A stretch of DNA of 64,000 bases from Alcanivorax sp. S71-1-4 (lineage in GTDB: Bacteria > Pseudomonadota > Gammaproteobacteria > Pseudomonadales > Alcanivoracaceae). This document shows, in pieces, positions 4,816 to 55,831 of the stretch (position 1 is the stretch's first letter; the number at the start of each line of letters is the position of its first letter). The translations under genes were made by a program, and so were the position numbers. The notes under the pieces are model-generated. The model was given only the letters and a program-made list of their open reading frames with translations. It did no database searches and was not told the origin of the DNA. The stretch spans positions 1-64,000 of the forward strand of contig NZ_AQOR01000024.1 of NCBI RefSeq assembly GCF_009846755.1, given 5' to 3'.

Positions 4816-4984
4816 GTAGGGTGGGTAGAGCCAAAGGCGAAACCCACCGAGACCATGCAGCACACTGCTCGCACAAAACCATCGAAACTACCCACTTCCC
4901 AAGCCGGGTGATTTCGATGGTTTTGCGGGAGTGAAGAACGGGCATGGACCCGGTGGGTTTCGCCTTTGGCTCTACCCACCCTAC
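4816..4984. repeat. 169-bp palindromic element, copy A
   Basis: The ends are perfect 34-bp inverted repeats beginning GTAGGGTGGGTAGAGCC. The interior is also self-complementary (ACCATCGAAA against TTTCGATGGT), so the whole element can fold into one long hairpin or cruciform. It lies 3 bp after the FTR1 stop and 31 bp before the adhC stop, between convergent genes. No target duplication is evident. The arms translate into spurious peptides (for example VGFAFGSTHPT), which should not be annotated as genes. Confidence 0.95.
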
Positions 4985-25535: not shown

Positions 25536-25702
25536 GTAGGGTGGGTAGAGCGCAAGCGAAACCCACCGGGACCATGTAACGCACTGCTCGCACAGAATCA
25601 TCGAAACTACCCACCTCCCAAGCCGGGTGATTTCGATGGTTTTGCGGGAGTGAATAACGGGCATGGACCCGGTGGGTTTCGCTTGCGCTCTACCCACCCT
25701 AC
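25536..25702. repeat. 167-bp palindromic element, copy B (arm-compensated variant)
   Basis: Same architecture as copy A. The subterminal arm reads GAGCGCAAGCGAAAC on the left and GTTTCGCTTGCGCTC on the right, where the other copies have GAGCCAAAGGCGAAAC and its complement. Both arms changed together, so base pairing is kept. It lies 18 bp after the hmuY-like stop and 8 bp before the DUF411 stop. Confidence 0.95.
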
Positions 25703-29325: not shown

Positions 29326-29365
29326 CCGGTGCTCCGGTGGACAGCGGAACCAATTGGGCGAAGTA

Positions 29366-29396
29366 TTGACCTTACCATCATGGGAAGGTCAAGGAT
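29366..29396 (+). promoter_or_regulatory. CueR-type copper promoter of copA
   Basis: A -35 TTGACC (29366-29371) is separated by 19 bp from AAGGAT (29391-29396). The spacer contains the CueR-like dyad ACCTTACC...GGGAAGGT (29369-29389). CueR itself is encoded at the end of this transcription unit. Confidence 0.85.
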
Positions 29397-29430
29397 GGCG
29401 ACATGCCATACCCCTAACCGGAGAATCGCC

Positions 29431-31877
29431 ATGCCCGATGACACCCTCAGCCCCCCGCGTCAGCACACCCGGCTGCCTGTGGAAGGGATGCATTGCGCCT
29501 CCTGCGTCGGCCAGATCGAAGCGGCACTGAACAAGGTCCCCGGCGTGCTGGGGGCCAGCGTGAACCTGGCCACCGAAACCGCCGAAGTGAACGCGGAGGA
29601 GGGCGTGCGCCCGGCCCAGCTGATCCAGGCCATCACCGACGCCGGCTACACCGTCCCCGCCGAACAACTGACGCTGAACATCGAGGGGATGCATTGCGCG
29701 TCCTGCGTGGGCCGCGTACAGCAGGCACTGGAGGCCGTGCCCGGTGTGCTCGAGGCAAACGTCAACCTGGCCACCGAACAGGCCAGCGTATCGCTGGTCA
29801 GCGGCACCGACCCCGAGAAGTTACGTCAGGCGCTGGCCGCCATCGGCTACACCACCGCCGCGCCGGAGCAGACCGGCCCGGACCGGGACGCGCGCCGCGC
29901 GCAGGCGCAACGCAGCCTCAACCGGGATTTCTGGCTGGCGCTGGTGCTGACCCTGCCGGTGTTCATCATGGAAATGGGCGGGCACCTGTTTCCGCCGTTC
30001 CACATCTGGCTGATGACCAAGCTCGGCCACGACACCAGCAACCTGATCCAGTTCATCCTGGCGACGCTGGTGCTGATCGGCCCCGGCCGCCGTTTCTTCA
30101 TGCAGGGTGTCCCGGCGCTGCTGCGGCTGGCGCCGGACATGAATTCGCTGGTCGTGGTCGGCACCAGCGCCGCCTGGGGCTACTCGGTGGTGGCCACGTT
30201 CGTACCGCACTGGCTGCCGCGTGGTACTGACAATGTCTATTTCGAAGCGGCAGCGGTCATCGTCACGCTGATCCTGCTCGGCCGTTATCTGGAGGCACGC
30301 GCACGCGGGCGCACCAGCGATGCCATTCGCCATCTGGTCGGCCTGCGCCCCCGCACAGCACGGGTGCGCCGCGACGGCAGTTTCCAGGATGTCCCGCTGG
30401 AAGACATCCAGGCAGGCGATGAACTGCTGGTCCGTCCCGGTGAAAAAATCGCGGTCGACGGCGAAGTGATCGACGGCCGCTCACACATCGACGAATCCAT
30501 GCTCAGCGGCGAGGCAGAACCGGTGGCGCGCAGTGTCGGAGACGAAGTGATCGGCGGCACGCTCAACACCCACGGCACGCTCACCTACCGTGCCACCCGC
30601 GTCGGCAGCGACACCGTGCTCGCGCAGATCATCAGCATGGTGGAAACCGCGCAAGGCGCGCGCCTGTGGACAAAGTCACCATGTGGTTCGTGCCGGCCGT
30701 CATCGGCCTGGCCTTGCTCACCTTTATCGTGTGGCTGGTGTTTGGCCCGGCCCCGGCGCTGTCCATGGCGCTGGTGAATGCGGTGGCCGTGCTGATCATC
30801 GCCTGCCCGTGCGCCATGGGGCTGGCCACGCCGACCTCGATCATGGTCGCCACCGGCCGCGCCGCCAGCCTCGGCATTCTGTTGCGGCGGGGCGAAGCAT
30901 TGCAGGCCCTGCGTGACACCACCCTTATCGCATTCGACAAGACCGGCACGCTCACTGAAGGCAAACCGTCGCTGACCGATCTGCACCCGGCGCCCGGCTT
31001 CGATAACGACACGCTGTTGCGATGGATCGCCGCCGCCGAGCAACCTTCCGAACATCCCAGCGCGCAGGCACTGGTGCGTGCTGCCGAAGCACAGCAACTG
31101 TCGCTGCCGTCCGCCGAACAGTTCGAGGCCCGTGCCGGGTACGGCGTCACGGCCGTGGTCGAAGGCCGGCGCATCGCCATCGGCAATGCACGTTTAATGG
31201 AAACGCTGCACATTCCGGTCAGCAGCCTGCAGGCCGATGCCGACACACTGGCGGAAGCAGGCAAGTCACCCCTGTTCGCCGCCGTGGATGACCAACTGGC
31301 CGGCGTGCTGGCCGTGGCCGATACGCTCAAGCCCAGCGCACGCGCAGCCATCCAGGCGCTGCACGCACAACATATCGAAGTGGTGATGATTACCGGCGAC
31401 AACCAGCGCACCGCCGAGGCCATTGCCCGGCAGGCCGGTATCGACCGGGTGTTTGCAGACGTCCTGCCCGGCGGCAAGGTCGATGCACTCAAGACGCTGC
31501 GCCAGCACGACGGCCGCATCGCGTTTGTCGGCGACGGTATCAACGATGCCCCGGCGCTGGCGGAAGCCGATGTGGGCATTGCCATCGGCACCGGCACTGA
31601 TGTCGCCATCGACAGCGCCGACGCGGTGCTGATGTCCGGCGACCTGATGGGCGTGCCCCGCGCCGTGGCGCTCTCGCACGCCACGCTGCGCAATATTCGC
31701 CAGAACCTGTTCTGGGCGTTTGCCTACAACGGCGCGCTGATCCCGGTGGCTGCCGGCGCGTTGTATCCGGCGTTTCATCTGCTGCTGTCACCGATGTTCG
31801 CCGCCGGCGCCATGGCCCTGTCCAGCGTGTTTGTGCTCAGCAACGCGCTGCGGCTGCGGCGTTTCAAACCTGATTGA
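29431..31877 (+). pseudogene. copA: copA: copper-exporting P1B-type ATPase, frameshifted
   Basis: The reading frame is split. The first part (29431-30777) encodes two heavy-metal-binding domains (CASC at residues 22-25 and Cys89/Cys92), four membrane helices and the actuator domain with the TGE-equivalent SGEAEP. It then runs out of frame after AQGARL. The second part (open from GTG 30666 to 31877) resumes at [10 protein letters not shown] and has the CPC copper site (IACPCAMG), the phosphorylation site DKTGT and the hinge GDGINDAPA. Family members read AQG-x2-xPIQ-x-LVDKV at the junction. Here the PIQ segment is missing and the frame shifts, consistent with a 16-nt deletion between two CTG triplets. 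A sequencing error is possible. Start ATG 29431 has GGAG 7 bp upstream. Confidence 0.85.
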
Positions 31878-43810: not shown

Positions 43811-44968
43811 ATGGCCCTGACATCCTTCCCTCGCTCCCTTGCCCGCGCCACCGGCAACGCACGCGCCTGGCTGCGCCGTGACCCGTCGGTGATTCAGGCA
43901 GAGCGCACCCCTTTTGAGGTGATCCACCAGCAGGACATCGTGCGCCTGCGTTACTACCCGCCGCTGCCCGCCGGGCAGATCGAGGTGGATGGGGAAATGA
44001 TGGACGTCGCGACCACCGCGCAGCCGGTGCCGCTGGTGCTGGTGTCACCGCTGGCCGTGAACATGCTGATCTACGATCTGTTCCCGGAACGCAGCCTGGT
44101 GCGTTATCTGCGCGCAAGGGGCTTTGAGTTGTATCTGGTGGACTGGGGCCGGCCGGGGCGGGCTCAGGATCACTGGACTCTGGGCACTTATATCGGCGAC
44201 CTGCTGCCACAGATGCTGGCGAAGGTGCGCGAGCACAGCGGCAGCCAGAAGCTGTCGCTGCACGGCTGGAGTTTCGGCGGCTTGTTCAGCCTGTGCTACA
44301 CGGCGCTGAGCCGTGATCCGGATATCGTCAACCTGGCCTTGATCGGCGCGCCTTGCGACTACCACGCCAACGGTGTGCTCGGCGAACAGTACCAGCGGCT
44401 GGCCGCCGGCATGCAGTGGATCCAGCGCCGCACCGGGTGGCGGGTACACCAGTCAAAGCCAGCCTTCTGGCGCTCGCCAGGCTGGGCCAACAGCCTGCTG
44501 TTCAAACTCACCGCGCCGGTAGCCAGCGCCCGCAGTTATGCCGAACTGCTGACACATCTCGGCGACCGCGACTTTGTCAGCAACCATGCGACCAACAGCG
44601 CGTTCCTGGATGACATGGTGGCCTACCCCGGCGCAACGGTGCAGGACATCCTGCAATATCTCTGGACCGACAATGTGCTGCCGACAGGCCGCCTGCCCAT
44701 TCGGGGATGCGCTGCGCGCTTCAGCGATGTCACCGCCAACACCCTGCTGGTCAGCGGCAGGCAGGACCCGATCGTGACCCGCGCCTGCATTGCGCCAATC
44801 CAGACGCTGGTGAGCAGCGACGATGTGTCGTTACTTGACGTCCCCGGCGGGCACATGGGTATTCTCGGCGGCAGCCAGGCCGCAAAAACCATCTGGCCGG
44901 CGGTGGCCGACTGGCTATCGGCCCGCTCCGGCCAGCAGAGCGATGCCACCCAGCAAGGGGTGGCGTAG
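43811..44968 (+). CDS. PhaC-like alpha/beta hydrolase with Ser nucleophile
   Basis: Protein of 385 aa that resembles class III PHA synthases (PhaC) and related alpha/beta hydrolases: QDIVRLRYYPP, PLVLVSPLAVNMLIYDLFPERSLVRYL and YLVDWGRPG. The nucleophile elbow is HGWSFGG with Ser154, where true PhaC has Cys; Asp319 and His348 complete a triad. It may be a polyester hydrolase or acyltransferase rather than a polymerase. The TAG stop lies inside the palindromic element (copy C), so the insertion set the C-terminus QQGVA. ATG 43811 has GGAG 6 bp upstream. Confidence 0.83.
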   Translation: MALTSFPRSLARATGNARAWLRRDPSVIQAERTPFEVIHQQDIVRLRYYPPLPAGQIEVDGEMMDVATTAQPVPLVLVSPLAVNMLIYDLFPERSLVRYLRARGFELYLVDWGRPGRAQDHWTLGTYIGDLLPQMLAKVREHSGSQKLSLHGWSFGGLFSLCYTALSRDPDIVNLALIGAPCDYHANGVLGEQYQRLAAGMQWIQRRTGWRVHQSKPAFWRSPGWANSLLFKLTAPVASARSYAELLTHLGDRDFVSNHATNSAFLDDMVAYPGATVQDILQYLWTDNVLPTGRLPIRGCAARFSDVTANTLLVSGRQDPIVTRACIAPIQTLVSSDDVSLLDVPGGHMGILGGSQAAKTIWPAVADWLSARSGQQSDATQQGVA

Positions 44969-45133
44969 GGTGGGTAGAGCCAAAGGCGAAACCCACCGGG
45001 ACCATGTCGCACACTGCTCGCACAAAAACATCGAAACTACCTGCCTCCCAAGCTAGGTGATTTCGATGATTTTGCGGGAGTGAATAACGGGCATGGACAT
45101 GGTGGGTTTCGCCTTTGGCTCTACCCATCCTAC
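44965..45133. repeat. 169-bp palindromic element, copy C
   Basis: Begins GTAGGGTGGG immediately after the penultimate codons of the PhaC-like gene and supplies that gene's TAG stop (44966-44968). The right end is CTACCCATCCTAC (one mismatch against the left arm). It ends 7 bp before the stop of the convergent membrane-protein gene. Confidence 0.95.
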
Positions 45134-55662: not shown

Positions 55663-55831
55663 GTAGGGTGGGTAGAGCCAAAGGCGAAACCCACCGGGAC
55701 CATGTTGCGTACTGCTCGCACAGAACCATCGGAACTGCCTGTCTCCCAAGCTGGGTGATTTCGATGATTTTGCGGGAGTGATTAACGGGCATGGACACGG
55801 TGGGTTTCGCCTTTGGCTCTACCCACCCTAC
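55663..55831. repeat. 169-bp palindromic element, copy D
   Basis: Same 34-bp terminal inverted repeats and hairpin interior as copy A. It lies 5 bp after the Bax-like stop and 5 bp before the polysaccharide deacetylase stop, filling the convergent junction almost completely. Confidence 0.95.

Follow-up and report, generated by a model that had tools for sequence, protein, structure and literature searches.

Intergenic palindromes of Alcanivorax sp. S71-1-4 as a probable RAYT-associated REPIN family settled behind gene ends

Introduction

Why would one family of palindromes recur between the ends of converging genes, and does it serve those ends or simply survive there? The question is raised by a 64,000-nucleotide stretch of the Alcanivorax sp. 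S71-1-4 genome (contig NZ_AQOR01000024.1, positions 1 to 64,000; hereafter the window). An old suspicion holds that REP elements help to shape the ends of transcripts. In this study, the palindromes of the window were analyzed for their anatomy, genomic distribution and relation to neighboring genes. They very probably represent a RAYT-associated REPIN family that has expanded in this lineage and come to lie behind gene ends, chiefly those of convergent genes. The assignment draws directly on the anatomy and copy number of the elements, REPs of the same class beside a RAYT gene, the co-occurrence of arm and RAYT, sites that lack the element in a near relative, the placement bias and a tag that supplies stop codons.

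Genomes, samples and gene calls

The genome of the strain (G000) comprises 4.18 Mb in 77 contigs. Placement relative to genes was assessed in a sample of 716 kb, consisting of the window together with contig C12 and the greater part of the large contigs C45 and C23; extra loci were added by similarity and contig order, without regard to orientation. Arm matches for placement were taken from the best strand only, with a less degenerate pattern, and genes were called with our own simple codon-usage caller. Filled and empty sites were compared with those of a same-genus relative, G006, which is about 90% identical to G000 and mostly collinear with it over the compared parts.

Anatomy of the palindromes

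Four full palindromes of 167–169 bp, reported in an earlier note on the window, were recovered at 4816–4984, 25536–25702, 44965–45133 and 55663–55831. The end of a fifth lies at 1–14 on the minus strand, clipped by the start of assembly contig C17, whose base 1 is also the first of the window. The first copy (169 bp) comprises a left REP hairpin (4816–4848, plus strand) and an inverted right one (4952–4984, minus strand), each bearing its GTAG tag on the outer side, with a spacer between them; the second (167 bp) carries a GCAAG-type loop variant in both arms, and the third and fourth measure 169 bp each. The outer arms of the window copies pair over 41–50 nt with 90–98% complementarity, and folding predicts a single long hairpin per copy, at about -111 to -123 kcal/mol.

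The arm reads GTAGGGTGGGTAGAGC-CAAAG-GCGAAACCCACC and forms a hairpin with the stem GGTGGGT/ACCCACC, outside whose foot the GTAG lies unpaired, as expected of a GTAG REP. Two arms stand head to head across about 103 bp of spacer, and the inverted pair and spacer form one joint hairpin, the arrangement of a REPIN. The spacer, too, can pair with itself, and each element thus consists of two related halves of about 85 nt. Genome-wide, element length varies, lying mostly between 160 and 295 bp with 169 bp the commonest, and the elements have no coding capacity. Of 48 arm pairs, 30 share one loop variant where 20 would be expected, and none of 5000 shuffles reached this number; such matching fits either the upkeep of pairing or spread as a unit. 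Searches with the Rfam 15 families gave no match at or above a gathering score anywhere in the window, and a search of the plasmid collection gave no match.

Two departures from the standard form were observed. At C13:26562-27180 of G000 (L074:6562-7180), a REPIN is followed by five nearly identical, head-to-tail copies of its right half with a 90-bp period, a small satellite that grew from half an element. Hairpins of 85–87 bp with related but different ends lie between convergent genes at C12:1856-1940 and C45:83407-83493 of G000; they are absent from G006 and perhaps constitute a second REP subfamily.

Copy number and mobility

The arm occurs exactly 202 times in G000 (94 forward, 108 reverse), a copy number that may be underestimated because REPINs probably break contigs in this 77-contig assembly, while a reversed control pattern gave 0 matches in the same genome; the family is thus real and far beyond chance. 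High copy number is combined with an extragenic location typical of GTAG REPs and REPINs, 61 of 62 elements lying outside called genes. The contig of the window itself starts inside a REPIN, which suggests that these palindromes interrupt short-read assemblies.

Both flanks of 29 elements could be aligned to G006. Opposite 18 of these, all of the window type, G006 has only a short arm-free gap; five sites hold an element or remnant at the same place, two are related short hairpins that likewise face a short arm-free gap, and four correspond to larger gaps. Among the window copies, those at 4816, 25536 and 55663 are missing from G006 (the last faces a 17-nt gap), and that at 44965 is common to both genomes. 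The 18 empty sites mark the element as mobile, as GTAG REPs and REPINs are, and, together with the RAYT link described below, they back the proposal that the palindrome moves. Each difference could be a gain or a loss, and the 202 arms of G000 against 36 in G006 make gain in the S71-1-4 lineage the simpler reading.

Just outside the GTAG tag, 119 element ends show a base preference of about G-T-G-C-[C/G], at 0.2–0.7 bits per position. This preference is weak but real and may point either to preferred targets or to element sequence that has eroded. A stricter rule, insertion at GTAR, fits three clean junctions (C45 80952, 183120 and 191634) and fails at others, and was not adopted.

Association with a RAYT gene

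The sole Y1 transposase detected in G000 is a RAYT of 183 aa, which scores 195 bits against the NCBIfam model REP_Tyr_transpos (cut-off 80) and whose nearest solved structure is TnpA_REP, 4ER8 (phmmer 4.5e-53). Its gene is flanked by REPs, GTAGGGTGGGAAGAGC..GCGAATCCCACC, of the same design as the window arm, with one stem pair exchanged in compensated fashion on both sides. A RAYT bordered by REPs of the same class is characteristic of GTAG REP systems, and most RAYT relatives in other taxa are bordered by GTAGGG hairpins of their own. The REPs beside the RAYT belong to a sister type and do not match the window arm exactly, which counts against the RAYT account. Among 57 genomes, comprising that of the strain and its relatives, the exact arm is found in only two, G000 and G006, and these are also the only two that carry the RAYT (96% identical in G006, next best 61%).

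Long terminal inverted repeats, high copy number and the lack of coding capacity would equally suit miniature elements (MITEs) of a DDE transposon unrelated to any RAYT. We consider that origin highly improbable, since the ends of the palindromes are GTAG-tagged hairpins, the same class borders the RAYT gene, arm and RAYT co-occur, and the flank comparisons of G000 and G006 sites reveal no evident target-site duplication.

The REPINs would be non-autonomous elements, two inverted GTAG-tagged REP hairpins around a self-complementary spacer. The RAYT (TnpA_REP), a tyrosine single-strand transposase of the HUH type whose gene lies elsewhere in the genome, would recognize the tagged hairpin and probably spread the elements in trans by a single-strand route. 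That this RAYT moves the window-type REPINs is likewise inferred.

Placement relative to genes

All four full window copies lie between convergent genes according to our own gene calls. Their distances to the stop codons on the plus-gene and minus-gene sides are 3/31, 18/8, -4/7 and 5/5 nt for copies 1 to 4; the overlap of 4 nt between the copy at 44965 and its left gene arises because that gene ends with the TAG of the element's GTAG. Intergenic length alone would predict 7.5 convergent, 12.8 unidirectional and 8.7 divergent dimeric elements within the 716 kb; the counts observed are 23, six and zero (binomial p = 3e-9 for the convergent excess, 23 of 29 elements). Copies distributed in proportion to intergenic length, the outcome that would have spoken against a special placement, were thus not seen. 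When the extra loci are included, 49 of 62 elements are convergent (about 79%), 12 unidirectional and one divergent. The earlier note had placed the family only between convergent genes; the strong bias holds and the exclusivity does not. For most elements the nearest stop codon is less than 60 nt away, and most non-convergent ones follow directly behind an upstream gene, so that location near 3' ends, in convergent or unidirectional gaps, matches that of GTAG REPs.

The REPINs settle or survive right behind stop codons, mostly in gaps between convergent genes that contain no promoter to disrupt, and most of the bias probably reflects selection against landing in genes or promoters. Divergent gaps would be free of elements because promoters and coding sequence are avoided. 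The barest form of this idea holds that the repeats are purely selfish, survive only at gene ends and have no effect on transcripts, their placement being due to purifying selection alone. We give it an even chance. It agrees with the 0 of 92 divergent gaps occupied in the sample and the single divergent element overall, with the near-absence of elements from coding sequence, with the sharp difference in copy number between near relatives, and with protein ends that are mostly unchanged at filled sites (see below). Unidirectional gaps offer gene ends too, yet only 6 of 434 (6 of 211 when limited to at least 50 bp) are filled, compared with 23 of 93 convergent gaps, and terminators are reduced at filled sites. 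Promoter avoidance by itself leaves the excess over unidirectional gaps unexplained, and this counts against the REPIN/RAYT account; the excess calls for a further factor, be it selection against hairpins that separate co-oriented genes, an advantage of a transcript end common to both genes, or preferred targets.

Stop codons supplied by the tag

Of 110 gene ends, 21 show an offset of exactly -4, at which the GTAG tag gives the gene its in-frame TAG, and 14 of the 55 TAG stops in the sampled sequence come from an element tag. In the window, besides the copy at 44965, the fifth copy provides through its CTAC the minus-strand TAG stop of the gene at 11–1108. Seven tag-stopped ends could be compared with an element-free counterpart in G006. 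Protein length is the same at five of them, where the native G006 stops are TAG, TAA, TAA, TAA and TGA; the other two proteins are longer than their G006 versions, by four and seven codons.

Terminators at filled and empty sites

The element resembles an intrinsic (Rho-independent) terminator in presenting a symmetric hairpin soon after the stop codons of convergent genes. Unlike such terminators, it is about five times longer, repeated and mobile, and it does not follow the plan of a GC-rich hairpin and subsequent U-tract: its terminus on both strands is CCCACCCTAC, and no T-run belongs to it. With no U-tract on either strand, the element is not a canonical terminator, and the suggested bidirectional terminator was not borne out in that form.

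A functional reading would nevertheless have the palindromes kept as bidirectional terminators or 3'-end stabilizers that replace intrinsic ones, the convergent bias being positive selection; we regard it as rather unlikely. The comparisons that favor it rest on a home-made terminator scan and on small, overlapping and correlated tests. Of 25 convergent gaps that hold an element, 6 also contain another intrinsic terminator, compared with 16 of 28 element-free gaps measuring 25 bp or more (p = 0.025). At sites where G006 lacks the element and has a terminator, G000 keeps one at 1 of 6 element sites versus 10 of 14 others (p = 0.05), and strong hairpins of any kind behave similarly (p = 0.015–0.03 at three overlapping thresholds). 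The G006 gaps at the 4816 and 25536 sites contain an intrinsic terminator in place of the element. For the 4816 gap, the outgroup G002 also has terminators and G000 has none, so the loss occurred on the S71-1-4 branch. Against the functional reading, besides the missing U-tract, stands the observation that 11 of 17 empty G006 sites had no terminator to replace (the gap opposite 55663 is one without), and element sites are inherently sites of sequence change. A general rule that elements always replace terminators was rejected on the same 11 of 17 sites. These comparisons suggest that the element displaces a native terminator at some loci (p about 0.015–0.05).

For the REPINs, a further and weaker step can be envisaged, in which both transcripts would share a 3' end at the long RNA hairpin, which would keep exonucleases out and/or assist Rho-dependent termination, and a native terminator at the site could then be lost. 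Such a real role at transcript ends, with a shared 3' end and a dispensable native terminator, is a tentative proposal whose chances fall somewhat short of even. Its broadest version, a REPIN family taking over gene-end functions in one lineage, with about a quarter of sampled TAG stops, about a quarter of convergent gaps and native terminators replaced as shared transcript end, appears decidedly unlikely.

Comparison with described elements

Among mobile elements, the palindrome belongs to an ordinary and well-characterized kind. Di Nocera et al. (2013; PMC3733652) described GTAG REPs, their head-to-head dimers with conserved structured spacers and their link to RAYTs; convergent REPs lay <20 bp from both 3' ends, and the supply of stop codons by GTAG REPs was already reported. 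The Alcanivorax elements share with them a short hairpin with the tag at its foot, outward tags, a structured spacer, high copy number, a RAYT in the genome, positions within about 20 bp of gene ends in convergent or unidirectional gaps, and a tag that gives TAG stops. They differ in their convergent share, about 79% here, and in a longer spacer, which at about 103 bp is among the longer ones published and counts against the assignment. The arm string GTAGGGTGGG was not found in the text of that paper, figures aside. The arm and REPIN family itself is new, and its kind, including GTAG REPs, dimers, RAYTs and 3'-end or convergent placement, is already published.

Bertels and Rainey (2011; PMC3116915) defined REPINs and described the doublets as random in extragenic space. 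The present elements resemble theirs in the inverted REP doublet, the single hairpin, the RAYT link and the occurrence of some tandem clusters; unlike them, they measure 169 bp rather than about 80–100 bp and show a strong bias to convergent gaps instead of a random extragenic distribution. In E. coli, biochemical work on TnpA_REP established the GTAG plus hairpin as the recognized substrate (PMC8266576), and REPs within 15 nt of stop codons have been discussed (PMC12306157). The RAYT reported here is a clear relative of TnpA_REP of the E. coli REP/BIME system (PMC8266576; 4ER8), whereas the hairpin differs from that of E. coli.

The present analysis adds one more family, a filled and empty genome pair, and numbers for the exchange of stop codons and terminators. 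Because G000 and G006 present the same gene ends filled and empty, the pair makes it testable whether a selfish repeat can replace host terminators and stop codons.

Other features

A further repeat, unrelated to the REPINs, spans about 262 bp at C45:102201-102462 of G000 (L080:2201-2462) and ends in inverted repeats of 31 bp (GGAACCTCTGAATAACTCCCCGG...); it has at least 18 copies in G006 and is probably another miniature mobile element. In the window, a copper-type P-ATPase gene at 29329–31877 is split into two overlapping frames by a frameshift near 30660. The gene reads through in G006, and the split form is either a real pseudogene or an assembly error.
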